IMG/VR virus record: IMGVR_UViG_3300037558_001138
Coordinates: 1 to 59,313 of that record
Strand: one strand, 5' to 3'
Length of the DNA stretch: 59,313 bases
Origin: a virus
Below, in pieces: positions 25,854-59,313 of the stretch. The position numbers were made by a program, and so were the translations under genes. Position 1 is the first letter of the stretch; each line of letters begins with the position of its first letter. A model generated the notes under the pieces. It was given only the letters and a program-made list of their open reading frames with translations, did not search any database and had not been told where the DNA came from.

Positions 25854-25993
25854 TGGCACACGTACAAGACCCAAGGCCGGTTGAAAAACTGAAATCTAAT
25901 GCTACCGTTGCTGAACGGATTGCAAAAATTAATGAGTTGGTAGACCTCGTGAACAGCATGTGGTTTACTGACGACGCAGATCATACAGAATGA
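25853..25993 (+). CDS. tiny protein, 46 residues, between fibre and lysis genes
   Basis: The ATG at 25853 overlaps the fibre stop (TAATG) and the TGA at 25993 overlaps the next ATG (ATGA), so this short frame fills the space between two genes exactly. The protein starts MAHVQDPRPVEKLKSNATVA and ends VNSMWFTDDADHTE: a helix with a Pro-containing N-terminus and an acidic tail. No membrane segment. Its function is unknown; it could chaperone the fibre or regulate lysis. Confidence 0.6.
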   Translation: MAHVQDPRPVEKLKSNATVAERIAKINELVDLVNSMWFTDDADHTE

Positions 25994-26496
25994 AACGACC
26001 AGAACATATGAAGCTGGAACTGTACCGTATGAGTACGGGCAAAGACAGCACGCTAGGAACTTTGTTTCTTAGTACAGGTAAAGACAAAAGAAAGTATCTT
26101 TGCTTTACATTAGAGGACGAGCATCGTGACGAGAAGGTGATGGCAGAAACGCGCATCCCGGCTGGTGAATACGAGATTAAGCTCAGAGACTTCGGTGGCT
26201 ACCACCAGAAGTATAGCAGACGTTTTAAGGATATTCACAAAGGAATGTTGTGGCTCCAGGACGTTCCAAATTTTAAGTATATACTGATCCACTGTGGCAA
26301 TACAGATGAGGACACTGCTGGTTGCTTGCTTACTGGGTATGGGCCAAAGCGAGTATCTGGCGGAGAGTTTGAGTTATACAATAGCACCCAGGCGTATTTT
26401 GATGTGTACCCGCCTGTAGCAAACCATCTAGCGGATGGAGGTACCGTAACAATTGAAATCAAAGACTTCGATGAAATTCCAGAACGGTTGGGGTAA
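25990..26496 (+). CDS. DUF5675-type protein, probable lysis-associated enzyme
   Basis: A 168-residue protein. The core ETRIPAGEYEIKLRDFGG, then HKGMLWLQDVPNFKYILIH, CGNTDEDTAGCLLTG, is the DUF5675 signature, with a His and Cys arrangement (ILIHCGN, AGCLL) reminiscent of L,D-transpeptidase-like folds. DUF5675 genes often occupy the endolysin slot beside holins in phages of Bacteroidota, as here. No signal peptide. Activity on peptidoglycan is inferred from position and resemblance, not proven for the family as far as I recall. Overlapped on both sides by tiny genes. Confidence 0.7.
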   Translation: MKRPEHMKLELYRMSTGKDSTLGTLFLSTGKDKRKYLCFTLEDEHRDEKVMAETRIPAGEYEIKLRDFGGYHQKYSRRFKDIHKGMLWLQDVPNFKYILIHCGNTDEDTAGCLLTGYGPKRVSGGEFELYNSTQAYFDVYPPVANHLADGGTVTIEIKDFDEIPERLG

Positions 26497-26626
26497 CCCA
26501 AATAAGCATGCAGATAAATTTATCTACAAGCTTCGTATCGGCACTGTTACAGTGTTCGACTTTATTATTGACTTGAGTTCTAAGTTGTACTCAGTTACTT
26601 TTTTCAACTTTACAATTAAGTTCTAA
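26471..26626 (+). CDS. tiny protein, 51 residues, overlapping lysis genes
   Basis: This frame starts with ATG at 26471 inside the end of the DUF5675 gene and stops at 26626, where its TAA overlaps the holin ATG (TAATG). Protein: MKFQNGWGNPNKHADKFIYK followed by a hydrophobic, aromatic beta-like part (VTVFDFIIDLSSKLYSVTFF). The exact fit between neighbours and the coupling to holin support expression. The Phe- and Ile-rich half could associate with a membrane. Possibly a lysis regulator; family not recognised. Confidence 0.6.
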   Translation: MKFQNGWGNPNKHADKFIYKLRIGTVTVFDFIIDLSSKLYSVTFFNFTIKF

Positions 26627-27072
26627 TGGACAAACTCCGCGACACCAAACTAGGGTCGTGGCTAAAAGAAAAAGCGCCTAAGATTTTTGAGACAGTAGCC
26701 GATGCATTACCCGATGCCGGACTCTTAGGTGTAGTAAAGAACCTTGTAAACGCAGACAGTAGCCTTAGCCACGAACAAAAATTAGAGTTCGAACGTCTTG
26801 AGCAACAAGAGCGTATTGCTTTAGAGGAAAACGTTACCAAGCGTTGGACAGCAGATGTAGGATCTAAAAGTTGGCTGGCTAGAAATGTCCGTCCTTTAAT
26901 CGTACTGTCTTTGACATTTATGTTTCTTGTATTCATTCTACTGGATACCCTTGCTCCTGTGGAAGTGCGGGATGCTTGGATTAAGATGTATGAAACTATT
27001 CTAATGACTACAATTGGCGGCTACTTTGTAGTGCGCACTGTAGATAAAAATCAGCTGCCATGGCAACGCTAA
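26626..27072 (+). CDS. holin, GTA/3TM-like
   Basis: A 148-residue protein. The N-terminal 70 residues are amphipathic and charged (WLKEKAPKIFETVADALPDA; HEQKLEFERLEQQERIALEE). Next comes RWTADVGSKSWLARNVRPLI, a hallmark of 3TM-type phage holins, then membrane segments at about 89-109 (LIVLSLTFMFLVFILL) and 122-139 (ETILMTTIGGYFVVRTV). It would permeabilise the inner membrane at lysis time. Neighbours support this: a DUF5675 candidate lysin upstream and tail genes downstream. Its last 13 bases overlap the next gene. Confidence 0.75.
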   Translation: MDKLRDTKLGSWLKEKAPKIFETVADALPDAGLLGVVKNLVNADSSLSHEQKLEFERLEQQERIALEENVTKRWTADVGSKSWLARNVRPLIVLSLTFMFLVFILLDTLAPVEVRDAWIKMYETILMTTIGGYFVVRTVDKNQLPWQR

Positions 27073-33914: not shown

Positions 33915-34195
33915 GTTTGCGTAGGTGGTTTAAAGAAGAATGGAAAGATGTCCGTACGGGCAAGGCGTGCGGGCGTAAGTCCGCTAAAGGAGGATCTAAA
34001 CGTCCTTACCCTTATTGCCGACCTACAAAACGGGTAAACTCTAAAACGCCTAAGACTAGAGGCGAGATGTCTAAGTCAGAGAAGCGTAAAAAGGTTAGTG
34101 AAAAGATTCGAAAAGGTAACCCTGGGGGTAAGCCTACACGTGTGTCTGCAGTAAAGCGTCGGAAAAAACGTACTACTACTAAACGTAAACGGTGA
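33911..34195 (+). CDS. small very basic protein 3, DUF5872-like
   Basis: A 94-residue protein starting MSLRRWFKEEWKDVRTGKAC. It continues GRKSAKGGSKRPYPYCRPTK, a signature I associate with the DUF5872-type small viral proteins (WxDVxxGKxCGRxSAK, then YPxCRPxKRV). The C-terminal half is Lys/Arg-rich (KRRKKRTTTKRKR). The two Cys and surrounding residues could bind metal. Its stop TGA overlaps the ATG of the secreted protein gene by one base. Probably virion or nucleoid associated; function unproven. Confidence 0.65.
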   Translation: MSLRRWFKEEWKDVRTGKACGRKSAKGGSKRPYPYCRPTKRVNSKTPKTRGEMSKSEKRKKVSEKIRKGNPGGKPTRVSAVKRRKKRTTTKRKR

Positions 34196-36330
34196 TGAAA
34201 GGCTTTTTACTATTTCTAGGGTTCTTGCTACCAACATTTTTAATGGGGCAAGGTTGGGTTCTTGTATCGCTACAGACTGATTTGTATGCCCCAGAAACTA
34301 GCTGGGTCATTGTGCAAGACAATAATGTTTTAGAAGAGTCGCCTTTGTATCCTACGGAGTCGTACAATGAAAAGCTCGTGTTTTTAGAGCCGGGTAATTA
34401 TGACTTTATTATTTATGATAGCTTTGGAGATGGTATCTGCTGCGCGTTTGGAGAAGGGTACTTTACATTATCTAATGCATGTGGTTTAGATACTACTGTG
34501 TACGACTTTGCTAGCTCAGAGTTGGTTTTACCTTTTGAGGTTTTACCATGCCCACCTCCTATTTTCGGGTGTAGCGATCCTCAAGCCGTTAATTATAATC
34601 CTTGGGCTAACGTGTCACAGCCCTGTGCTTATCCTCCTCAGCCATGTGGAGAGGGAGAAACAACCGTAATTGTTACAGTAACGCCTGACACCTATGCAGG
34701 TGAGATTAGCTGGGGATTACAGTCTAACGGGGTTGAGGTCTTGTCAGGCAGCGAGTACAGTATTGTAGGCTTGCCTATTACATACGATGTATGCGTATCA
34801 GTTGGGGATACTCTTGTTTTAGAGGTAATGGATACTTTCGGCGACGGTATGTGCGGCAGCTGTTATGGGGGTGTAGACGGTAACATTTCAATAACCACTT
34901 TATGCCAAGACACTCTATACTATGTTGGAGATACTTTGCAATACTCTACTATTTCTAGCGGGTTAATTGGGATTGACGAGTGCGTGCTAGAAATTGCCGA
35001 AGGTTGTACTGACTATAATTTTACTGAGTACGATCCTTTAGCGCTAATAGACGATGGGTCTTGTGTTACTGAAGTTATTCTTGGCTGCACTATACCAGGC
35101 TCTTTAAACTTTAATCCAGACGCTAATACTCTAGAGACTAACCCTCTTTGCATGAGCCAGCTAACTCTTACCGATGGGGCAGGAGATGGCTGGTTTGGCA
35201 GCTGGTTAGGCGTCGTTCAAGGCGACGAGATTTTTGGTCCATTCCAGATGGGGCCTAATGATGGCGTAGAAGAATCCTTCTATCTCCCACTCTACTCCGG
35301 CGAACCTATTCAAGTCTACTTTTTTACGGGAGGTAATGCCGAAACTACTGCCGCTCAGTGCGGATTTTTGCTGACTAGTCCTCAAGGCATTTTCATGCAG
35401 GCGGGTACTAACCCCTGGAATGATGCTATTAAGAAGTTTCCCTATACCTATACAGGGGTTCCTTTCTGCAATGATTTGTGTGTCGAAGCGGTAGTTGGAT
35501 GCATGAACCCCCAAGCCTGTGATTACGATTCGCAGTCTAATGTAGAGGGGGACTGTACGCTTCCTATTGAGTTCTACAACTGTTCTAACGAGTGCATTTT
35601 TGATACTGATAATGATGGCGTTTGCGATGAGCTTGAGGTTGTTGGGTGTATGGATGCTACTGCCTTCAACTACAACGAACTTGCTAGTGACCCAGGAGAA
35701 TGTGAGCCATTTATTTTTGGGTGTATCGACCCCACCCAATATAACTATGACCCTGGAGCGAATACGGATAACGGTAGCTGCTTTCCTTTTGTGTACGGAT
35801 GTACTGATGTACTCGCTGTCAACTTTGATGAGGACGCGAATACAGACAACGGAGGATGCATTGAAGCTGTCCTCGGGTGTATGGATCTTAATGCCTATAA
35901 CTTCGAGGTTTCCGCTAATATAGCGAATAACGGTACATGTTTGTACGATGCAGGATGCATTACCGGACCAGGGCAACCTTACTGGGCAAACGACTCTTGT
36001 TATTCTTGGGTTATTGAAGTAGACCCTTTCTGCTGTGACACTGAGTGGGACGGAGCTTGCCAAGAGCTACATAACTACTGCGAGTTAGGCTGGCCTACTG
36101 ACGTTACAGAGATTGAGCATACGATTCGGGTGTACCCTAACCCAGTCCAAGACTACCTTACTATTGCCTGCGCTAATTTGCAGAGTGTTGAAGTGCATAA
36201 CAGTGTAGGACAACGGGTTTACCAAGGCACCGCTAGTACGCTTGACACTAAAGCTTGGTCTTCAGGAGTATACCACTTAACTGTACGTGCATACTTGCGG
36301 TCCTATCACATTAAAATTGTAAAGCCATGA
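34195..36330 (+). CDS. secreted Cys-rich repeat protein with T9SS sorting domain
   Basis: A 711-residue protein with a signal peptide (MKGFLLFLGFLLPTFLMGQG). The ATG at 34195 is chosen over the GTG at 34192. The mature part has three modules with a D-FGDG or GAGDGW core and about eight Cys repeats of the type GC-D--A-NYDP-A-TDNGSC. A calcium-like DTDNDGVCDELEV and an FCCDTEWDGACQELHNYC motif also occur. The last 65 residues (from about 646) fit the type IX secretion sorting domain: VYPNPVQDYLTI, VEVHNSVGQRVYQG, SSGVYHLTVR and a terminal KIVKP. It should cross the inner membrane by Sec and be attached or released at the surface by the host T9SS. Confidence 0.82.
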   Translation: MKGFLLFLGFLLPTFLMGQGWVLVSLQTDLYAPETSWVIVQDNNVLEESPLYPTESYNEKLVFLEPGNYDFIIYDSFGDGICCAFGEGYFTLSNACGLDTTVYDFASSELVLPFEVLPCPPPIFGCSDPQAVNYNPWANVSQPCAYPPQPCGEGETTVIVTVTPDTYAGEISWGLQSNGVEVLSGSEYSIVGLPITYDVCVSVGDTLVLEVMDTFGDGMCGSCYGGVDGNISITTLCQDTLYYVGDTLQYSTISSGLIGIDECVLEIAEGCTDYNFTEYDPLALIDDGSCVTEVILGCTIPGSLNFNPDANTLETNPLCMSQLTLTDGAGDGWFGSWLGVVQGDEIFGPFQMGPNDGVEESFYLPLYSGEPIQVYFFTGGNAETTAAQCGFLLTSPQGIFMQAGTNPWNDAIKKFPYTYTGVPFCNDLCVEAVVGCMNPQACDYDSQSNVEGDCTLPIEFYNCSNECIFDTDNDGVCDELEVVGCMDATAFNYNELASDPGECEPFIFGCIDPTQYNYDPGANTDNGSCFPFVYGCTDVLAVNFDEDANTDNGGCIEAVLGCMDLNAYNFEVSANIANNGTCLYDAGCITGPGQPYWANDSCYSWVIEVDPFCCDTEWDGACQELHNYCELGWPTDVTEIEHTIRVYPNPVQDYLTIACANLQSVEVHNSVGQRVYQGTASTLDTKAWSSGVYHLTVRAYLRSYHIKIVKP

Positions 36331-37367
36331 GATTAGTAACCACTCTACTGCTGATTGCTTTACCTTTTATGGCATCGGCTCAAGTCTTTGATAATTTCTT
36401 TAAGTACTCGACTTTGTATGCAGCAGCTAATGGCAATAACTCTTTAGCTACAACGGAGGCTTACTCTATTGACGGTAACACAGTTCAGTATGATTTGCTT
36501 GAAACACCTTTTGATTACAGCTTTACTTTAGGTATTCGCAAAATTGCTCGTTTTGGATACGAGAATAGGGCTAACGCATTTTATGATGGTACTGAAAAGA
36601 CTTATGGCGATGATGCTACTATTGGAAAGCGCCAAGGTTTTGAGTTTTTATCTGAGATTGATTATCGAAGGCAACAAGGTCGGGCATTTGTAAACCAGCA
36701 TCACTTTCTAAGGTATGTGTCCAAGTGGTGGCTTTCTAAAGTAGAGTACTTAGAGGATGGCTTTGCAGATGTAAAATACGTGGAGGGATCACAACGGTTC
36801 CGTATCAACAGTCAAGGCAAGCTTTCTTTTAACATTGGTATTGCCCAGCGTATTTCAGAAGCATATGGCTACGACCCCATTGGAGAGTGGGTACAAGCAA
36901 ATAATTCTGTGCACTATACAACACTAGCTTTACAAGAAGGCTATACAGTAAACTTTGCTACACTAGAGTTTCTTAATCCTGCGGGAGATGTAGTAGCTAA
37001 TAGCGTAGACGTTTGGCGAGAGGTGGTTATCCCAGAGGTTTTAAGCAATTACGCTTTAAAGCAGCGTTCGGCATTACAAGCGCAGTGGTGTCATAGTGCG
37101 GTATTGGGCTATGACTATTACTACAACAGTAAAGAAATGTGGTTGCATACCTGGGGAAACTTCTATCCTTACCACCTAAATGTCAATAACGAATACTCTT
37201 ACAATAACTTAATTGGTAAAGACACTTGGCTTGATTTATCCGTAGGGGTAGTAAGCGGGTGGCGTATTACTAGAAGCTTAGGAGTATTCCTAGAAGGAAC
37301 CTATAACCGGTATTGGAATCGGTCTTGGCATAACTTTTCTGCGGGTGTAAACTATGTAATTTATTAA
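36327..37367 (+). CDS. outer-membrane beta-barrel protein
   Basis: A 346-residue protein with signal peptide (MRLVTTLLLIALPFMASAQV) and a long chain of alternating hydrophobic/polar strands with aromatic girdle residues. Examples are FDYSFTLGIRKIARFGYENR, HFLRYVSKWWLSKVEYLEDG and RSLGVFLEGTYNRYWNRSWH. It ends FSAGVNYVIY, a C-terminal aromatic beta-strand as used for BAM-dependent insertion. Its ATG overlaps the stop of the T9SS cargo gene (ATGA), so both are made together. I recall similar barrels in marine phages of Bacteroidota. Function may be surface remodelling, receptor masking or a partner for the secreted protein. Confidence 0.75.
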   Translation: MRLVTTLLLIALPFMASAQVFDNFFKYSTLYAAANGNNSLATTEAYSIDGNTVQYDLLETPFDYSFTLGIRKIARFGYENRANAFYDGTEKTYGDDATIGKRQGFEFLSEIDYRRQQGRAFVNQHHFLRYVSKWWLSKVEYLEDGFADVKYVEGSQRFRINSQGKLSFNIGIAQRISEAYGYDPIGEWVQANNSVHYTTLALQEGYTVNFATLEFLNPAGDVVANSVDVWREVVIPEVLSNYALKQRSALQAQWCHSAVLGYDYYYNSKEMWLHTWGNFYPYHLNVNNEYSYNNLIGKDTWLDLSVGVVSGWRITRSLGVFLEGTYNRYWNRSWHNFSAGVNYVIY

Positions 37368-37657
37368 TGATGAGCAAAGTGTTGAATGAGGATACCAGTT
37401 TTTCCATCAGTATAAAAACGCTGCTGGGTATTGGGGCGGGGATGGCTGCTTTAATTAGCGCGTGGTTTGTTTTGCAGGCAGATATTGAAGAGGCAAAGAA
37501 GTTGCCTGTGCCGCCTGATCCGGAAATTACACGCATGGAATTTGACATGAAAGACAAGCTTGTGCGTCAAACAATCATGTCTACCCAAGAAGACGTAACT
37601 GAAATCAAAATGGACATCAAAAGGATAGAAGAAAAAATTGATGACCTAAGAAATTAA
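37367..37657 (+). CDS. membrane-anchored coiled-coil protein
   Basis: A 96-residue protein. After a polar N-terminus comes one membrane segment (LLGIGAGMAALISAWFVLQ, about 19-37), then a Pro-containing hinge (KKLPVPPDPEITRMEF) and a long charged coiled coil (TQEDVTEIKMDIKRIEEKID). This topology fits an inner-membrane spanin-like or lysis accessory protein, or an anchor reaching into the periplasm. It starts by TAATG overlap with the barrel gene. No Cys or lipobox is seen. Confidence 0.6.
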   Translation: MMSKVLNEDTSFSISIKTLLGIGAGMAALISAWFVLQADIEEAKKLPVPPDPEITRMEFDMKDKLVRQTIMSTQEDVTEIKMDIKRIEEKIDDLRN

Positions 37658-37661
37658 TATC

Positions 37662-38027
37662 ATGAAATTCTTTACCGCATTTTTCGCTACATTTGTTATC
37701 GGTGCCGCATTGCTGTCAACGCCAGCAACAGAGTATACCGAAGAATCATATGCTGGGCTGTGTGTTGTCGAGTTCAACGCCCAGTTCAACTCTCAGAATA
37801 GTGTTCCTTGGATTGAGGAACTATCGGACTGCAATGGACGTCGAGTTGATATCGCGGCTAGTCCTGACCAGCAAACAGAATATAAGATTGTAGTAGTACC
37901 TACCATCATCATTTTTAATGAAGGCGCAGAGGTCAAGCGCTATCAGGCTAATATCATGATGGAGCTAGAAGTTCAGAAAGAAACCATTCAACACGATATC
38001 GATGAAATTATAATGAGTGACTTCTAA
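37662..38027 (+). CDS. exported thioredoxin-fold protein lacking CxxC
   Basis: A 121-residue protein with a signal-like N-terminus (MKFFTAFFATFVIGAALLST). Thioredoxin features follow: strand LCVVEFNAQF, then the cis-Pro loop VVVPTIIIFNEGAEVKRYQA (P80). Where thioredoxins have WCxxC this protein reads FNSQN (N43-S44-Q45-N46), so both catalytic Cys are replaced. Two other Cys (34 and 57) remain. The protein cannot perform normal dithiol exchange through that motif. It may act as a binding or scaffold protein in the periplasm. TAATG links it to the basic gene that follows. Confidence 0.7.
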   Translation: MKFFTAFFATFVIGAALLSTPATEYTEESYAGLCVVEFNAQFNSQNSVPWIEELSDCNGRRVDIAASPDQQTEYKIVVVPTIIIFNEGAEVKRYQANIMMELEVQKETIQHDIDEIIMSDF

Positions 38028-44317: not shown

Positions 44318-47300
44318 ATGGCGGAGGAAAACCAAAAGCCGGTCAACCTGGGCGATCTAGGTACGGCATCATCCTCAGACATTCGCAAAGCTTTAGAAGG
44401 ACAGCCTAGTCCTGTGGAGGCGGATGATTCTGTAGATCCTACACCCCCGACGGAAACGTCTGCTTCGACTCCAGCAGTCGCAGGTACTGATGTTGATGAA
44501 ATTCTAGGTGGGAATGCTTTTAACCTGTCAGAAAAAGAAGACGGGACTTATGAGTTTTTCAATCCTTACGACAGTAATCTAGACGTAGACTTAGATCAGT
44601 TTGAAACGCAACGTCGGCGTGTGTCAGAGGATAGCATGCTTTCTGGCATTTTAAATGGGGTAGAGGGGCTTGAAGAAGGGTTTACCTATGGAGGTATCCA
44701 AGACACTGTAAAACGCAGTGAGGAAGCTCAAGGTGTAGTCAATAAAATGAAGAATGGCTTGACTCAGCTTGTAGCTGATACAGGCATTAATGTAGCTCAA
44801 GGGTTTGGGTCGCTGCTGTATGGGGTTCCTAGTGCTATTGTAAATGGGGACATTACTAAACTTTATGATAATTCTTTAGCTAATAACTTAGATAAGGGCA
44901 CAGAGTTTTTAGACGAGTTCTATAAAATTAAACGAGGTGGGGATCAGAGTACTGGTCAAAAAGCGGCTAACTTTTTATTCGATGACGTAGCGGGTGGTGC
45001 AAGTTTTGTTATGGGTGCTATTGCTACAGAAATGGCATTTACAGCACTTAGTGCGGCTACGTTTGGCGCTGCCGCTCCTGCGCAAGCTGCTGCTACAGCC
45101 GGTCTTGTAGCTCGGGGTACACGCTTAGTACACAAAGCTATGCAAGGGGGCAAGGCTTTAATGTCTGGTAGTTTGGTAGATGATGCGCTAAGGGCTAGCC
45201 GAGCTTTAGGAGCTAAAGCTACTAGGGAAGGTGCGTCTGCTGCCTTACAAACTGCGGCTCAAGCTGCTCGTACTCCTATGGCTATGCAGGCAGCTGCTCG
45301 TGTTTCGCGACAACTTATTACAGGCGCTTCGATGGAGTCAGGTATGGAAGCGCGACATATGCTTAATGCCGCAGTCGAGAATCAAAAACATCAGTACGAA
45401 GATCTAAACGGCAAAGGTTCATTTACTGAAGAAATGTCTGGTCAATTTCGCGAGGAAATTAGCGGATACGCAGATGGGGTTTTTGGTACTAACATGGCTT
45501 TAGTTGGAGCATCTAACATGTTAATGTTCCCAAAGCTTTTTGGGGTCGGACTTCGCAAAGGCATGAGTACCGCTAAGTTTATTGACACAAGTAAACTTTC
45601 ACAAAGAGCACGAGCGCGTCTAGCTAAAAATATGGGCGTAGTAGAAGGTAAGTTACCTCGTATGGTAGATGCTGCTAGGGGCAATACTATGGGACGTATT
45701 GTTGGACGAGGAGGTCAGATTGGGCGGGTAACTGCAGCCAATACTAAAAATGCTTTATATGAAGGCTTTATTGAGGAGGGTGGACAAGGAGCTATCAGCC
45801 GCTCTACCGAGGACTATATCTCTAAACGTTATGATCCAAAAGGGGTAGAAGGCACAGTTAGATTTGCCGATAGCTTTTTAGAAGGGCTAAAGGGAAGCTA
45901 CACGACCAAAGACGGCTTTAAGGAAATTGGTATTGGAATGCTTTTAGCGTTTACCGGTGTTCCTATGTATGCGCGTAATCAGAGTACGACTGCTTCATCT
46001 GAAAGCGAAACAGCAGGTAAGCCTGAAAAGAAGTGGAAGTGGCAAATGATGGGGGGCTATGCGGATCAGCGAAATGCGTTGATAGCTCAGGATAAAAATA
46101 TGGATGCCATTATTGCTTTATCTGAAAAGCATGGAGATGTCGGGGGCATACTGAAAGCAGAAATTTCTAATATGAATAGACAGAATGTCTTGCAGTCTGA
46201 GCAAGACGTTTCTATCCAAGAAGGGAGGTTTAAAGAAGCGAAAGATGCAGAAGCTGAAATGATCTTTTCGCATGCTGCAACCAAAGTCGTTACAGGTCGG
46301 TATGAGCAATCTATTGAGGAAGCTCAGCAGGTAATGGATGAGATGACAGATGAGGAGTTGCGCGAGCAGCTAGGGCCTGATGCAAAAAATATGACGGGGG
46401 AAGACCTGCGTACTCACCGTAATAAAGCTATGGAAAGCTACCGTGCTCGGATGGACCGTGCACGCCAGGCATACGAGAGAGCTGGGGAGGTATATCGCGG
46501 TGCTGATCCCGATATCCATACTGGAGTTGCGCACATGCTTTACATGGTTCAAGAGAAGGATGCTCGTGAAAAAAAGATTGCAGAAGAAATGGCGGGGGCT
46601 ATTGAAGGCATGAATGAGGGTCAGATTCTTGATTTTATGCAAGCCACCAGAGACTTGAATAATAGAGATGAAGTACTTGGCGAACTCCTTACTTTAATCA
46701 ATCGTCGTAAAGACATTGATAAACAACTTGCGACTAAAAAGTCACGGGGTATTATTAAAAATATTGACCCTAAAAAGCAAGAGGCACGAGATGCTGAAGT
46801 AGCGATTTTGCAGGAATCTCAGCAGGAGAACTTAGACGCCATGCAACGTCTAATGGATGTCATGTCAACAGCTAATAATGTTGATCGTAATAAGTATGAT
46901 TTTTCTAGTGTAGACTTCTTAGAGGGTTTAGCTCTCTTGCACCAAGAAATCCAGTTGCAACAAACTCAAGGACAGGGTATTCAGAAAGCAGACATTGAAC
47001 AACTGTATGCAGACTTGCAAGCAGTTTCTGCTGACAGAATGGAGCTTATCAATAATTACAATGACTTTATTAGTCCCGGAGGTGTTCAGCGTTTTGAAGC
47101 GCGAATGATTGGGTCTATTGAGCGATTGGCAGATATGTCTCCTGAAGAACGCAAGGAATCTCGTCAAGAGGCTGCTGCAAAAGAAGATGCAGAAGCCACA
47201 ACCCCAGACTCTTCGGATACTCCTCAAGCACCAGCTGAAGAAACTCCAGCAGCTCAAAGTTCTGACCCTACTGTACCGGGTACTCCACCAACTGATGACG

Positions 47301-50300
47301 GATCAGGTTCTTTTGAAGCGCCTCCTGGTTCAGACGTAGGTCCGGATACTGCGGGATTTGGGTTTCCTGACCCAACTCCAGGTAATGTGGGCGTTCCAAA
47401 AGGCGTTCCAGGTAATATGGGACTTGGAGAGCAAGGCACTGTAGCAGCTCCAACTGAGGTTCCTACAACAGAGCCTGCGCAACAACCTGCACGATCGGGT
47501 GTTGGCGAGGTATCTTTTCAATTTACCAACGCTAACAATAGCACTGAATCCAATGGCAAAAGCCCATTAAATGAGAAGTACTTAGCAGGGTTGAAGAAAG
47601 TAATTTCTGGGCTACCTGTAGGGACTGCTCTTGTAGCTTCACAAAATCCAGATGGTAAATTTAGCATTACTGCGGACGGCGTGCTTTTAGCAGAAGTTAA
47701 AACTTTGCCTACTGCAATTAGGAATCTCTTGAAAACAGAGTCTTCTGTGCAGCTGGTTACTACTTCAGAAGTAGGGCGCAAGTTCGTTGGCGGAGAGGCT
47801 GTAAATGAAATTATAGACGGGGAACTTGTTTCGGCAACCCGAAAGAAAGGACAACCAGCTGTAGAAAGTAGAGTTAACAAAGTTCTACCAAACGGTGCTC
47901 AGGATATTAAAGGCATGAATATTATGCCTAATACACACCATGAGTTATTAGACGTGGCAGGTGTAGACCCTATGGGTAATGTGCAGAAGGTTACTCCGGA
48001 TGCTCGATTTGCGGGAAACCTCTTAGTGTCAACTGTAGATTCTGCAAGCAAGCAGGAAGCTTGGCATTCAGTTCAGCTGGATGCTATGGGGTCAAAACGT
48101 GCTAATCAAATAGTAGACTTAATTGATGCTTTCAATCAGTTTGCGGTTAGCAGAGATGCCATGACTCCAGAACAGGTGCAGCTTCTTAAGACATTTGCAG
48201 ATGCTGCTGATATTAATTTAGATAAGCCTACTTCAGAAGTAGCAAAGCGTATGCGAGGCGAGTTGCGTAGTATGTTAGGAGTCCCCTATGTAAGTAATCA
48301 ACGCAAGAAGTTAAAAAAGTCCATTAGCAATCCTAGTGCTCGTAGGCCTTTGCTTGCAATAGAACCGTTAGGCAAAAAGCAAGAGGGTATCCAACTCATG
48401 AGTTTGCATATGGGAGAAGAGAACCATTCCCACGATAAAGCAGGCAACCGTGTTAGTGCTGGTTCTAAGATTGCTGCCATCCACTTAGCCTCGCACCGAT
48501 TAAATGCTTCGACGCAGGGTAACGTACTAGTTGCAGATGGGGATGGCAATTTTGAGGCTGTAGAGATGCGTGACATGGTAGACCGTTTTGGTAGCTTTTC
48601 CTACCGCATGCCCTTTGTAGTAGATGGTAAAATTTATAATACTCAGTTCTCTACTGTAGAGGTAGGTCTAGAGCCTATGGTTCCGGTTCCTACTGACCCT
48701 CGTACAGATAGGGCAGAAGTAGAAGCTCCAACTGCTGATCCAGCTCTTTTTATCGATTTAGATACTCTGCCTACAGACCTATCAAACTTTACTTTAGATA
48801 CAGATGATTATTTACCTTCTTCCTCACAGGATGCTGCTTCTACAGATCCTATGGAACGAGCAGGGGCTTTGTATGAAGTTCCTGGGCTAACATCGCGCCA
48901 GCTAAAAGATGGGTTAAATTTTAGTACTGGGGTAATGGCTCGTGCTTTCTCAACGCACCTGCGTACAAAAAACCGTTACAAGCCTGTATCGCCAGACTAC
49001 TTACGCCGTACGGTAAAGGGGTACTTAGAAGCGCAACTTGCTCATTATAAATCTTTGAAGCAAGAAGGTCCGGTTGTACAGATTGTTGAGGCTCATGAAG
49101 CCTATCTCAGTGATAAGAACTTTAATCCGTTGATGGATTTAGCTATGGTTTCGTTACTGAACCAGGCAGAGGGTAGTGTGCGGTTACGGGGCAAAGGCGG
49201 CTTGGAGGAAGCTTTAAAAAATATTGGTAGTTCAGATCCGTCTGCAGCAGAATTAGATGAGGCTAGTCAAGCAGAAAGGGAGTCGAACCCTATGGCTGCA
49301 TTTGATGAGAATTTTGCTTTTGGAGTGGACCCTAATAGCACTTTGCGTTTAGAGTCAAAGCTCTTACTTATGGGGTTAGTAGATAAATATGGTGTTAGCG
49401 CAAACTCTTTGGGACTTGCAGGTCAGAAGTTTATCAACTCAAAAGATTTACAGTCTAAACTAAGTTCTGTTCTTGCAGGTGTTGACCCTAGCTATGATAA
49501 AGTTAAAGAACGTTTAGAAGAGTATGTAGCTACTTTTCCCCAGTTCCAATCTGTTTTAGATACTCTAAGCGATCAGTATGCGTTAAGTAGTTTACCTCCG
49601 GGTTTAAAAGCAAACTCTACTGCTAAAGAGTACGCTAAAATTCAAAAGCGTGCCTTGTCTGTCCAAGACATGATACGCAATCAGTTTGTTGTCTTTGCAT
49701 CAAAAGAGTCAACAACGTTTGATAGCGCTACTATCGTTAAGGCAAAAGCCCAGAATGACCCTAATGGTACACCTGCTGAGATTAAAATTTGGAATAGCAA
49801 CTCTCGTAATATGCGGGAGCATGTAGGTAATGACATGCGTTCTACATTAATAGAACGAGGGTTTTTTGACTTAGAGGGAAAACCAGTAAAATCTAAGTTT
49901 AAGGCTGCTTATGATCAGCTTATTAAAATTTCTGAATTGCCTAAGCCAGATCAAGCTAAGGCTTTAGCTGCTGTGCTTAAAAAAGAATTTGGCATTGCTG
50001 TTCCAGTAGTTGCTTTAACGAGCGCAAACCTGACAAAGACTAAAAAGGGCGCCCCTGTATTTAAAGGCATTGAGAAAAGTTTAAATAATCCTAAGAGTCA
50101 GGCAGGAGTATTTGGGCGCTTTAGAAATGCTTTGGGAGTACTGTCAAAGAAAGACCTTCCTTTAGAAGATATGATCAGTGATACTGATGGATATGGCAAA
50201 GATTTGATTAATTTCTTTGTAGGGCTAGCAGACTATAGAGAAAACTTTATTCAAAATAGTAGCAAGGATGGTGACAATAAAGTTCGGTACCAGTTTAGTG

Positions 50301-53300
50301 CCCCTAAACTAATTCATCAAATCCTGCGTGATATAAAAGCTGGAGCTGTACAAGACCCTTTAAGCGTTTTGCTTGGTAAGCGGTTTGCTCAGCTAAGTCA
50401 AGAAAACCAGCGGCTGATTGGTTTAACTTATCTCAGCGGCATTAAACAGGATAAAGGCAGAGAACGCAACTTCCACGCAATGCAGGTGGGAGATAACATT
50501 ATGGCTCAGCTTGCTTTTTACGGCAATCGAAATACTTTCACTCAAAAGAACTCTCGCGGTGAAGTAGTTATGGTGTCGAAGTTTTTGATGCCAACACTAG
50601 CAGATAAACAAACAATGCCTATTCTGCAGGCGCCTGCTATGAGCGCAAAACAAGCAGGTATTGTTTTAAATGAGTCTGTGAAAGACAAGGCATGGGAGTC
50701 GCTTAAGTTCAAGGATGTAGTACCCAATGTAAAGGGAGCATATCAAGGAACTTTGAAAGATAGCATTGATCTTGAGGTAGATCGTATTATGAGTATTCAA
50801 TCAGGTAACACTGAGGGAATGACTGCTGCACAACGTGTGGCGGTAGGCTTTGTGATGATGCCCGGTTTAAATGGTTTAGCAGAAGCTTTTGTTGAGGGGA
50901 AGATTAGTCGGGCAGACTTTAGGGATAAAGTTCACAGTAAGGCTGTAGGAATGTTTGAAGAAGCTATGGATGCAGATATCCAGCATATGCTTCGTGAAAC
51001 GAAGGGTACTATTTGGGAGGAAACAACTAAAAGAGATGGCCCTAAAACGATTGGCAAATTAAATCAGTTTAATGCTTCTAAAGGAAGGAGGAATACGCCG
51101 TCAGACTTTGTCAGGATGCATGTTGCTCCTGGTTTAGATTCTGTAAATAAGGGAGGTATGCATAAGGTTGCTTTTGTAGCTTACCTCGCTAAGTATTCTA
51201 TGGATAGCTTAAATGTCCGCACTGGTATCATCATGGATACTATGGGCGATCCGGGGGCCTTTGTAAAAACTGACAAGGACACGGGTAAGATTAAGCAGGC
51301 TAAAACAGCTACTAATTTAGGTAAGCGCTTTGCTTCTCTTATCGCACCAGGTACTTCTATCCCGTTTGTTTCTTTTAACGACCGGAATGGTAATCCAGTA
51401 TCTAATGAAGCGGTGAACTTCTTGGTTATTCCTTCTCGCATAGTATCAAAAGCAACACATTATGACTACCTAGAAAAGATTGGGCAGTCTGCTGATGAGT
51501 TGTCTATGCAAGAGCATTACGATAGTGCAGATGCTGCAGAGTATACAACTGTAGAAGAACACTTAGGTATTCTTTATGCTCAAGGTAAAATTTCAAGCTT
51601 TGAGTTAGAGGGTATCCTAGGTAAGATTGCTAAGGGTAAAAAGCTAGAGAAGGCAGAGCTTGCTTGGTTTCAGCCTATGAAACCTGTAACTACAGCGCGT
51701 GTGGGAAATCACATGTTGTATGTAAAGAGCGCTTCTTTTCCGTTAGTACCCCAATTAACCCAGGGCACAGAGCTAGATAAACTGCGAGTGTTTATGGAAG
51801 GCAACAATGTCCAGCGTGCTGCATACGATAGTGCAGTAAAGTTGGGCAATGAGTGGGCAGATCCAAATGACAAACAAGCTACAGAAGATGAGAAAATGAT
51901 TCCTGTGCATGAAGGTGCTAATGTCGTAATTGATGAAGAGCCTTTACGTATGCGCGTGATTCGTAATGTGAATCGGAAGTATATGCGTATCCAGCAAGAG
52001 GTACCCACAAGCAAGACGAATGAAAAGGTACACGGTTCTCAAGTAGCTAAGCTGCTTCTTGTGGATCTTATTGATGCAAAGTTCGAGTTGAATGGGGAAT
52101 CTTTGACTGGGCGTGATATGCATGGGAAGTACTTGCAAGCACGTAGAGATGAGCAAGATGCTCGCTTGCGGTTATTTTCAGAGCGTTATGGGTTGACTAT
52201 TGATAAGGAAAATAACCTATATCATACCCCAGAATCGAAGCAAAAGTTTGCTGAACGTATTCAAGAAGAAGGCATTAGTAGGGGCTATGGTCCAAATGAA
52301 TTGGCACACCTTTACTTTGACGATAAGCTAAATGCTTTTACAACTCCTTTAGAAGCAGGACCTAGCTCAGAGCGTATTGAGAACCTTATTAAAAGCATTG
52401 TCTTTAGTGAGGTATATGAACCTAGTATTGAAGGCTTTAGCGGCCCTATACGTCCAGAAGTAGGCCTGAAGACGCTTGATGATAAGCTTGTTGACCAAAG
52501 TGATATCATGTGGCTTAAGAAAGGGGGCAAAAAGATTTTCAAGGGTAATAAGCTGAAGGTTGCTAAGAAAGGGCAGCTGGACCAGATCATTATGCCGTGG
52601 AAATACAAGGCATCCCTTGAGAAGTACATGGATGATGACGGTAATATTAATGCAGATGAGTTGCCACCAGAGTTGCTGAAGACTTTCGCCTACCGTATCC
52701 CCGGCCAGCGTAAGAGTTCTTCGGCTGCTTTTGAGATTGTAGGGTTCTTGCCTGCAGAGTATGGAGATACTTTAATTGTAAATGAAGAGTTGGTAGGACG
52801 CGTTGGGCAAGACTATGACATTGATAAAATGTTTGGGTTCTTGTACTCGATTGAGCAGGCAGAAGATGGTATTATTTCTATAAATAGAGGAGACGATACT
52901 ACCAAGAATCGGTTAGCAAAGGCTCGCAATGAGCAGGTTGATATTTATATCGCTTCTATGGAAGCTATCGACATTGCTGTGGAAAGGGCGGTTCATGCTC
53001 CTGTAACCGATGGGTACGCGAATAGTCTTGCGGATCAGATGGACCAGCTTTTGCACGATGATGCTGTTTTAGGATTGCCTATGAGCCAGTCTTATAACTC
53101 TCGTAAAGCAAATGCTGCTCGTAGTGCTAAAAAGTCTATCGGAGTATTTGCTGTTCACAACGTGTTGCATGCGCAGCTTCAGCAATCGTTAGCTGCGAGT
53201 CGCAATGGTGGGATAGAGTATATGCCAGAGGGCTTCGTTACTATTTTATCAAAGCCAGGGGCAGAAAAACCTACAGAGAATACCAATTTCGGGGATATGG

Positions 53301-56300
53301 GTATCCATGATACTTCTTTTATCCTAGATTATAAGAATACACCAGTCGCAGGGAACCGAAGTGATCAGTTTAGCCGTCTTCTAAATCATGCGGTAGACAA
53401 TGAAAACAACGGGTTACTAGACAAGCTAGGTATTACAGAAGATACTTGGTCATTGTGGACAGGTTTAACTCATATGGGCTACAACCAAGAAACAATTGGT
53501 CTTCTTGTAGCCATGCCTGCTGTTCAAGAGTACTTGACTGCTAAGTCACGTAGCCGTCGTTTAGGGGATTCTAAAGAACTAGAAGTAGGAATTTTTATTG
53601 ACCAATATGCCAGACAGCTTGTAGATAGTAAGACTGGTAAGGTAGACTTAGAAAGTATGCCAGCTTTAGACAAAGAGTCTATGCTGGGAATGGCTCAAGG
53701 CGTTTCAGAACTATCTGAAAAAGAGCAATCTATGATGAATTTCCAAGCGTTATTAGCAGTAGACAAGCTTGAAAATCTTAGGAAAGATGTGGCAAAAGTA
53801 CAGAACCATATGCAGCTCGATACTAAGCGTCCAAAAACAATGGTTGCTTTACAGGTAGCTATTGCTAAAATGGAAATGCCTAATAAAACTGAGTCTAATG
53901 GAAATGTGCTGCCTCTGGATGAGGCTATTGGAGCAACAGGTGCGACGGTTAGCGGTCAAGTTTCTGGATTAGTTGCAAATACTGCAATGACTTTGATGAA
54001 TCTGCAGCAAAACATGCTTCCTATGTCGGATGTCATGCAGCTGGTAAAGGACTTCCAAAAAGCAGAGTTATACGATAGCGTTGAGAATAGTATTACCACA
54101 CTTGTAAAGGGGGCAAAAAGTGCTACTTATGCGCTGTTTACTGAAAAGATTTCAGGTAAGACCAGCGAAGAGATTCGTTCTGAAGCTCATGACATTGATA
54201 CAGGCGGCATAGCTACGCGTTTGATTAAAGCTCGTCAGAATAAAGCTGTAGCGAATAACCCCTTTATTAAACAGCTGGTAGCTGTAAATGCGCCTAATAC
54301 TTATCCGCACATAGAATTTCCTGGGGATAGGCAATTGGAGTCAGATCCAATTGAATTACAACGAGCGTTTTTAGATTTACTACGCAGCTCTGATCCGGAA
54401 GTCAAAGCTTTTGCAGAGTATCTAGTATCGTATGCATTAGCTACTAGCGGAGGTCGTTTAAAGGCAAGAGGGTATTTGAAGTATGTACCTGCTGAATACT
54501 TACAGTCAAAAGGTTTAGGAGATACGGTAAATACTGGGGCAATATCAGAAGTCCTTAACAATCCTTCTAAGATTACTGAGATTGTACGCCATAACTCTGA
54601 GTTAGCTCCAAGATTCAATAAATTTTCAGAAGCTGGAATTAAACTAATACAAGGAGTTCCCCATCAACGTGTAGGCAGTGCTTCTTTTAAAGGACATGTA
54701 CGCGTGGGTAATAAGTTATACGCTCCTACAGAAGACCTGCCGGGCCGTGACTTAGATGGTGTAATGGTCCAACAGTTAAAAGTTGTAACTGAGCTAGGGG
54801 ACTATTTAACGGATGAGTACTCTACTCGTTCTCAGCCTAGTGACAAGCTTCCAACTGCGAAACGACCCAAAGGCCCTTCTTTGTCAGAAAGTCCAAATAT
54901 GCCGGTGCAGTACTACGACTCAATTACTGATGCTGTACCGCCAGAAATGGGCAGTTTTCCTGAAGGTGTGACAGGTCCCCCAGCTAATATGGGCTTAGAG
55001 GGGCCTAAGAAAAAAGTGAATGATGAAGTCGTACGATCTGATAACCCAAATAAAATGCCTATGGGCATTAAAGAGTTTTTGGCTATTTCAGAGTTACGTA
55101 ATAACCCTTTCTTACAAGAGTTAGCCAGAACACAGGAAGCGCTGTCTCCTGAAGATCGCGTCACTGTTGTTGTAAGCGACGATTTGCCAGGTAAGGGTAA
55201 GTACAATGCGGGAACAAACACGGTAACTCTGCGCCGTGATATGATAAACGATTCTCGGGCTGTAACGCATGAAATGATTCATGCCTTTACTAGTTTATCT
55301 ATTAAGGTTGTTCAAGGGCAAGCTAAAATTTCTGATCCTAAGAAGAAGGCAGAAATGGAGGCGGCAGTAAACGAGTTGAAGAAACTCTTTAAAATTGTAC
55401 GTAGCCCAGAGTCCATTGCAAAAATGGGGTTGAGCTTTGCAGGTCAGCAACAGGCAATGAGAGGCTATAGAGCTTTCCGTTCTCAAAGAGACGGTAAGAC
55501 TTTAAGTGCCGAAGAGTTGTTGGACGTAGAGTTCTTCAAAGAAAACTTAGATGATTACTACGCTTTTGTAAGCTTAGAGGAGTTTGTAGCAGAGTCGTTT
55601 TCTAACAAAGCTTTTGCTGAAAGAATGTCTAAGCTGTCGTTGAACCGTAATGAAACTTTCATTGACAGGTTTATTGCAGCTGTAAATAAAGCTTTGATGG
55701 CTTTAGGCGTAAACTTTGGTAAAGACACTGAGTTCTTAAGAGAAGTGTATACTGTAAGCATGGGCATAGTAGACATTCAAACAGGCGGTCAGATTGGTTT
55801 GATACCTGGTCAGGATATACCGTCAAGCGATTTGATTGATGGTGTAGCAGCTGCAGACGTTGCCGGACAGAATCTGAGAGGGGTAGATCAGATGCAGGCA
55901 TACAAGGAAAAGCGTATTAGACAGTTTGAGGAATTGAAGAGTCGCTACAATGGTAACAGGGAGTTTGTACGTAGAGTAGAGGCTAGGCTAGTGCAAGAGC
56001 GCAAGGACTTACAAGCGCTTACTGATGATAGTGTAGAGGTAACGCCCGACTATATGCTGTCTGTAGGTCAAAGAGAGCTAGACTTTGCACGTCGCACTAT
56101 TGAGAATGTCGACTCTACTGACCCGCAGATTGACATGGCATTAAGTGCCTTAGAGAATATCTATAGTGTGGTCGAGTTCTACGATAAGAGTAGGGATATA
56201 TTAAGAGACCCTGCGCTGGTGGATGTGGCTACTGCTTTACGTAAAGAAGCATCGGAGTTAAAAGATAACTACTTGGATAAAGCCCGCGATATCTTACGAC

Positions 56301-59107: not shown

Positions 59108-59313
59108 ATGACACATAAAACAATCTTGAAAACGCTTAGCCTACTCTGGTTAAGCGTTTTTCTTTCGTATAATAATAATGCTCAATGCGACGTGTCTATT
59201 ACGGGAGTCGACGTCAATACCTATGAGGTTACGGTTGAAGTAATTAATTCTACTGGTTGTACAGCAAACGGTCCCGGCGGAGTAGACGGCGCGGTAACTA
59301 TGCTGCAGATAGG
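59108..59313 (+). CDS. partial secreted protein with signal peptide
   Basis: The frame starts at ATG 59108, 3 bases after the giant gene's stop codon, and runs off the right edge. It reads MTHKTILKTLSLLWLSVFLS, then YNNNAQCDVSITGVDV, a Bacteroidota-type signal peptide with cleavage likely near NAQ-C. A beta-rich mature part follows (YEVTVEVINSTGCTANGPGG). It is the second strongly predicted exported phage protein without a lipobox here and may also be a surface or T9SS cargo protein; its C-terminus is not in view. A strong terminator hairpin lies inside its first codons. Confidence 0.6.
   Translation, partial: MTHKTILKTLSLLWLSVFLSYNNNAQCDVSITGVDVNTYEVTVEVINSTGCTANGPGGVDGAVTMLQI
59129..59164 (+). 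terminator. intrinsic terminator inside the start of the last gene
   Basis: Arm AAAACGCTTAGCC (59129-59141) pairs with GGTTAAGCGTTTT (59148-59160), 13 bp with one G-T wobble, around loop TACTCT; TTTTTCTTT follows. It lies 24 bases past the stop of the giant gene, the expected place for an operon terminator, yet overlaps signal-peptide codons of the gene starting at 59108. Confidence 0.85.

Follow-up and report, generated by a model that had tools for sequence, protein, structure and literature searches.

The window analysed here, the whole of IMG/VR virus record IMGVR_UViG_3300037558_001138 (59 313 nt), contains a gene for a predicted outer-membrane (OM) beta-barrel that starts inside the stop codon of a gene for a secreted T9SS protein. 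Is this barrel a surface partner of the secreted protein, as PorP/SprF proteins are for their substrates, or does it have a function of its own in the infected cell? The first-pass annotation had noted the overlap and offered both readings, an anchor analogous to PorP/SprF and a receptor-masking porin. We confirmed its observation and found its interpretation to be partly supported.

The barrel gene and the adjoining cargo gene

The barrel gene (36327..37367, + strand) encodes a protein of 346 aa between an ATG start and a TAA stop. Its ATG (36327-36329) starts one base ahead of the stop codon of the upstream gene and overlaps this TGA (36328-36330), so that four nucleotides (ATGA) are shared; the overlap that had been reported is thus real, and the exact -4 arrangement is seen in 73 out of 119 distinct loci. 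At the other end, the barrel stop and the start of the next gene (tmcc, see below) share one nucleotide (TAATG). Because homologues are conserved (50-85% identity, 33% for the most distant) and the -4 overlap recurs, this reading frame is beyond what chance would produce. Crude scans identified a putative signal peptide at residues 1-18 (36327..36380, + strand), with a hydrophobic stretch and an ASA/Q cleavage motif (MRLVTTLLLIALPFMASA, followed by QV). No family in Pfam, PHROG or NCBIfam covers the barrel; weak Pfam matches to SH3_5 and DUF5382_C were taken as chance.

The upstream gene (34195..36330, + strand; an alternative GTG start is at 34192) encodes a Cys-rich multidomain protein of ~711 aa, referred to here as the cargo. 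It has the two features of type A T9SS cargo, a Sec signal peptide and a C-terminal sorting domain (CTD; 36130..36306, + strand), the latter matching both Por_Secre_tail (PF18962; E 1e-7 and, in a second search, 2e-10) and TIGR04183 (27.8 bits, cut-off 23). Adjoining cargos in other loci carry the same type A CTD: of seven scanned with TIGR04183, six score above the cut-off and one (L062) just below it. In most whole records, this cargo is the only PF18962 protein.

Many cargos contain GC..NY..C-type repeats, in 4-14 copies. One cargo (L002:3236-6001) has a weak CBM48-like carbohydrate-binding domain (PF02922, E 0.002), and the L080 cargo contains a stretch that resembles this domain by eye. 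In-frame fusions of the cargo to a basic protein of ~90-100 aa ending in AAYWANKxKW are found in L062:5344-8004, L070:5296-7977 and L103:5293-7977, and also in L078 and L085; the basic part replaces the start of the cargo signal peptide. A second secreted-protein family begins at 59108-59313 of the window, where it is cut by the end of the record. Its relatives (L128:8286-9554, - strand) have a C-terminal type B T9SS domain (CHU_C, E 6.5e-18); CHU_C was found in seven out of 21 records, none of them with PorP/SprF.

Predicted structure of the barrel

Two AlphaFold2 models, built with 24 and then 56 homologues, reached pLDDT values of 70 and 77 and pTM values of 0.67 and 0.71, respectively. Each places 12 TM strands in a barrel, and neither has a non-barrel fold. 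By prediction, the protein combines a signal peptide, an even number of TM strands and PDB matches to OM barrels. Structure comparisons of the models with the PDB retrieved OM barrels from several families, none of which stands out as the closest, and searching PDB sequences with a barrel profile gave no match. Because the structural matches are to assorted OM barrels, the barrel fold is well supported by the models, as had been claimed for this gene, but no function can be derived from it. Functions suggested by Tsx, KdgM or OMPLA folds were dropped, since the ranking differed between models: Tsx and KdgM (Z 12-14) are among the solved folds closest to the first model, but in the better model Tsx is down to Z 9.1, level with many barrels. 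Among predicted viral structures, a single entry looks homologous, the unnamed 342-aa viral protein BFVD A0A516LKJ4 (Foldseek E 1e-25, TM 0.68, 23% identity), which is likely to be a homologue of the barrel.

Two regions between strands stand out. Residues 73-103 (FGYENRANAFYDGTEK; 36543..36635, + strand) form the most conserved long inter-strand region (entropy 0.59 in A5), which would be periplasmic if both barrel ends are periplasmic; pLDDT is low here in both models, and extra strands might hide in this region, which bears on the count of 12 strands versus 14. Between strands 7 and 8 there is a 75-aa loop with a helix (residues 178-252; 36858..37082, + strand), predicted to be extracellular. 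The predicted extracellular loops ext2 and ext3 are ~97% conserved, the long inter-strand loops are conserved too, and the strands contain many invariant Arg, Lys, Glu and Asp residues.

The barrel is not a PorP/SprF protein by sequence

The T9SS of F. johnsoniae has PorP/SprF shuttles for type B substrates, the shuttle gene often following that of the substrate directly, and PorV serves all type A substrates (PMC12618676). PorV and PorP-like proteins are 14-stranded barrels of the FadL family (PMC9143113). The phage barrel has no match to PF11751 (PorP/SprF) at E<=1, and hhalign against seven host PorP/SprF proteins gave a probability of 10%, aligning the signal peptide only; the remark that it lacks an obvious PorP/SprF sequence therefore holds. 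PF11751 was found in none of 21 phage records and in 15 out of 16 Flavobacteriales genomes. The barrel gene does lie directly downstream of its presumed substrate, but this substrate lacks a type B CTD. Since the CTD is type A and there is no sequence relation, the barrel fails membership in PorP/SprF, and membership in PorV was rejected as well on sequence together with the cargo CTD type. For the proposal that it attaches cargo in the PorP/SprF manner, the gene position fits, but the CTD is of the type served by PorV, and PorP/SprF proteins serve type B. In function, the barrel could nevertheless resemble a shuttle or an anchor.

Four genes are inherited together

We collected 33 relatives of the barrel in a first scan and relatives in at least 583 IMG/VR contigs by a profile scan. 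Clustering of the genes around barrel homologues showed that the same partners recur. Besides the cargo, these are two genes immediately downstream of the barrel in the window. The first, tmcc (37367..37657, + strand), encodes 96 aa with a single TM helix in its N-terminal part and a coiled-coil-like tail at its C-terminus (a topology from hydropathy only). The second, trx (37662..38027, + strand), encodes a protein with a signal peptide and a thioredoxin-like fold (PF00085, E 3e-4; PDB profile matches to thioredoxins, E down to 9e-9) that lacks the CxxC active site of thioredoxins: nearly all 97 family members have FNAxFN/WN at this position, none of the aligned copies has CxxC, and any C..C is found in only one out of 97.

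Cargo, barrel, tmcc and trx are all present in 30 out of 32 non-redundant loci (loci with complete flanks, near-identical barrels removed). Among the exceptions, L032/L033 carry barrel, tmcc and trx but have no type A cargo close by, and a type B substrate is encoded at the end of their contig; in L035 the profiles used detected neither tmcc nor trx, though earlier clustering had put a trx-family ORF just upstream. A reciprocal search starting from tmcc, and hence independent of the barrel, found within 4 kb trx in 70/70 loci, the cargo in 69/70 and the barrel in 62/70; five of the eight contigs without a barrel at this distance have one further off, and the remaining contigs are shorter or truncated. 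The order is permuted across loci (cargo-barrel-tmcc-trx, barrel-tmcc-trx-cargo and tmcc-trx-cargo-barrel were all seen) and the membership is kept. As judged from these genome sequences, the counts show that the four genes are a co-inherited, compact late-strand cluster, usually with overlapping genes, in unrelated Bacteroidota phages, and that the coupling of cargo and barrel is close to obligate across lineages. The pairing proposed earlier thus stands as a coupling but is incomplete, the set being one of four genes. One contig of 59.7 kb (IMGVR_UViG_3300030330_003594) has different barrel and cargo copies near its opposite ends (L041 and L118), a case of duplication or of joined assembly.

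Distribution among phages and hosts

The source record is crAss-like (terminase phrog_6681, portal phrog_6547, head phrog_11589 and CrAss_Ring_2). The module is found in several crAss-like (podovirus) genome types and also in contractile-tailed myoviruses (tail sheath phrog_34521, E 5e-126; baseplate wedge phrog_219), and its neighbours in the different genome types are unrelated. The module was found in none of 195 Flavobacteriales genomes, the MAG that was used as centre being set apart (196 genomes in all). In this MAG the module is on a contig with an adjoining amidase gene, and this contig is probably phage. Among cultured phages (INPHARED), three different barrel queries found no relatives, tmcc and trx queries found no true relatives but only ordinary thioredoxin-like matches, and the cargo query gave repeat-only matches. 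Because two phage types with unrelated neighbours carry the module and host genomes nearly lack it, the distribution points to a phage function and to exchange between phage lineages, rather than to a host gene caught once. The first-pass annotation was right to call the barrel gene a phage gene.

Other genes were also noted. The window encodes a DUF5675 protein (25990-26496) and a weak 3TM-holin-like protein (26626-27072), 8-10 kb upstream of the barrel; in many relatives, a holin-like gene directly adjoins the module. After the module region there is an ORF of 4928 aa (44318-59104), like the giant late proteins of crAss-like phages.

Barrel and cargo CTD diverge together

We compared distances between barrels with distances between the partner proteins. 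Barrel distance correlates with that of the cargo CTD (r 0.76), the Cys domain preceding the CTD (0.70), trx (0.67) and tmcc (0.61), and less with that of the cargo N-terminus (0.30). Given trx and tmcc, the partial correlation of barrel and CTD is 0.48 (119 distinct loci), as compared to 0.05 for trx and CTD given barrel and tmcc. The pairs that enter these correlations are not independent of each other, nor do the correlations control for shared host range as a confounder. Physical linkage was considered as the sole cause; this is not supported by the barrel segments or by the non-adjacent loci, although it is not excluded. In the only nine loci with the cargo away from the barrel, the value for barrel and CTD is still 0.57, and the link is not weaker at greater DNA distance but is strongest at barrel residues 130-235, a segment with most of the 75-aa loop. 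The correlation can also stem from shared host range or from inheritance as a block.

Possible roles of the module

Our preferred reading, to which we give a probability of roughly 0.4, is that the four genes are a late-expressed phage module for surface display, with the barrel as the dedicated OM partner or anchor of the cargo. Of the four components of this phage envelope module, the barrel would then be the one in the outer membrane. The cargo would be exported to the cell surface by the Sec and T9SS machinery of the host at a late stage of infection, and there the barrel, as anchor or assembly site, might contact the C-terminal region of the cargo through its large surface loop. The trx protein may be a redox-inactive periplasmic holdase with tmcc as its inner-membrane partner, and their clients may be the disulfide-rich cargo or the barrel. 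The surface of the dying cell could thereby be remodelled, becoming adhesive, for example, or blocking phage re-adsorption. To us the set, with tmcc and trx as two small helper-like envelope proteins, looks like a kit for rebuilding the surface of the infected cell. An analogous anchor, as suggested before, is plausible and indirectly supported by the correlated divergence of barrel and CTD, but the known partner of a type A CTD is PorV; as type A cargo uses this host protein (PMC12618676), an extra barrel should be unneeded. L032/L033, with no type A cargo nearby, also count against a partnership. A bolder version, which we consider rather unlikely, is that of a T9SS branch of the phage's own, for secretion or display: a 12-stranded non-FadL barrel as the shuttle or anchor of one type A cargo, with a redox-dead trx chaperone and tmcc, used late and shared by podoviruses and myoviruses.

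The main rival is lysis. Spanins, of the Rz/Rz1 and unimolecular types, include an inner-membrane coiled-coil protein, and tmcc has an i-spanin-like topology; tmcc, trx and barrel would bridge the envelope in the manner of a spanin and disrupt the outer membrane, and the cargo would weaken the surface. In one myovirus clade, the genes are indeed ordered cargo-barrel-tmcc-trx-amidase endolysin-holin with spacing of 10-14 bp, and a putative 3TM holin (below the Pfam cut-off), DUF5675 or amidase gene is at most two genes away in 23 out of 56 non-redundant loci. Elsewhere, the holin-like gene can be far from the module (as in G016), and it is within 4 kb in 26 out of 70 tmcc loci, roughly as clustering of late genes could give. 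The part of tmcc after the TM helix is only ~60 aa, and the near-constant secreted type A cargo has no role in known spanins. As to the OM lipoprotein subunit, crude scans found none among the conserved module genes, where the OM candidate is the barrel, of signal-peptidase-I type; a crude scan of the window's late strand found no lipoprotein either, which would suit a barrel in this place, but some other contigs hold lipoprotein candidates. Since adjacency to lysis genes is strong in one clade and inconsistent elsewhere, we keep lysis only as a rival, and an improbable one.

The surface-display reading also has to be weighed against a barrel that acts alone. Phage-encoded OM proteins such as lambda Lom and PA-2 Lc act in exclusion or masking, and a late-strand barrel gene could serve as a superinfection-exclusion or receptor-masking porin, the cargo being a separate surface decoy. 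The predicted extracellular loops are, however, conserved, whereas those of a receptor decoy should be diverse, which weakens the receptor-masking alternative, and a stand-alone porin would have no need of a tight tie to tmcc and trx; we regard this reading, which takes in the receptor-masking porin of the first-pass annotation, as distinctly less favoured. There is little support, and in our view very little chance, for a solute-specific channel feeding the infected cell, which the Tsx and KdgM folds of the first model and the invariant charged residues of the strands would suit but which does not explain why the barrel gene is linked to a T9SS cargo gene and lies in a late operon, or, least of all, for module proteins carried in the particle, where the location among virion genes on the late strand is opposed by signal peptides (cargo, barrel and trx) and a T9SS CTD that would route the proteins to the envelope.

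Comparison with known systems

An open-access PMC text search found no report of the four-gene module, which is not proof of absence. T9SS-sorted proteins on phage genomes have been described: Cryophage encodes type A cargo, reported as a unique occurrence (PMC7468147), and crAss-like contigs have T9SS-domain ORFs near BACON proteins or repeats (PMC6949934). The available excerpts of these reports mention no co-encoded barrel, trx or tmcc, and they present the Cryophage cargos as variable enzymes, whereas the cargo of the module is one conserved family.

As compared to spanins, the module would share an inner-membrane coiled-coil protein with an OM partner, sometimes beside endolysin and holin, but this partner would be a barrel instead of a lipoprotein, and trx and a secreted cargo are added. 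OM proteins of phages such as lambda Lom and PA-2 Lc are phage-encoded barrels too; they belong to unrelated families, differ in strand number or host and have no secreted partner.

Known T9SS shuttles offer further parallels. In the SprB/SprF and PorP pairs (PF11751), as in the phage module, an OM barrel gene is directly downstream of a T9SS substrate gene, and substrate and barrel probably act together; these pairs differ in their type B CTD and in having 14 strands rather than the predicted 12, and the phage module differs in its two extra conserved genes, in being phage-encoded and in having no sequence relation to them. PorV, a FadL-family barrel, is likewise an OM protein of Bacteroidota and serves cargo with a type A CTD, as the phage barrel may do, but a single host gene provides it for every type A cargo; the phage barrel has no Pfam match, and its similarity to the T9SS complex chain 8gl6_F (Z 8.6) is at the level of unrelated barrels. 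The set is kept in hundreds of marine virus contigs of unrelated lineages, so it is probably important at the envelope of Bacteroidota, a group with a major part in degrading algal polysaccharide. As a lysis device, the set would have an OM barrel in the place of the lipoprotein spanin; a barrel serving the T9SS cargo would amount to a viral counterpart of SprF and PorV, and to a second solution to surface anchoring.
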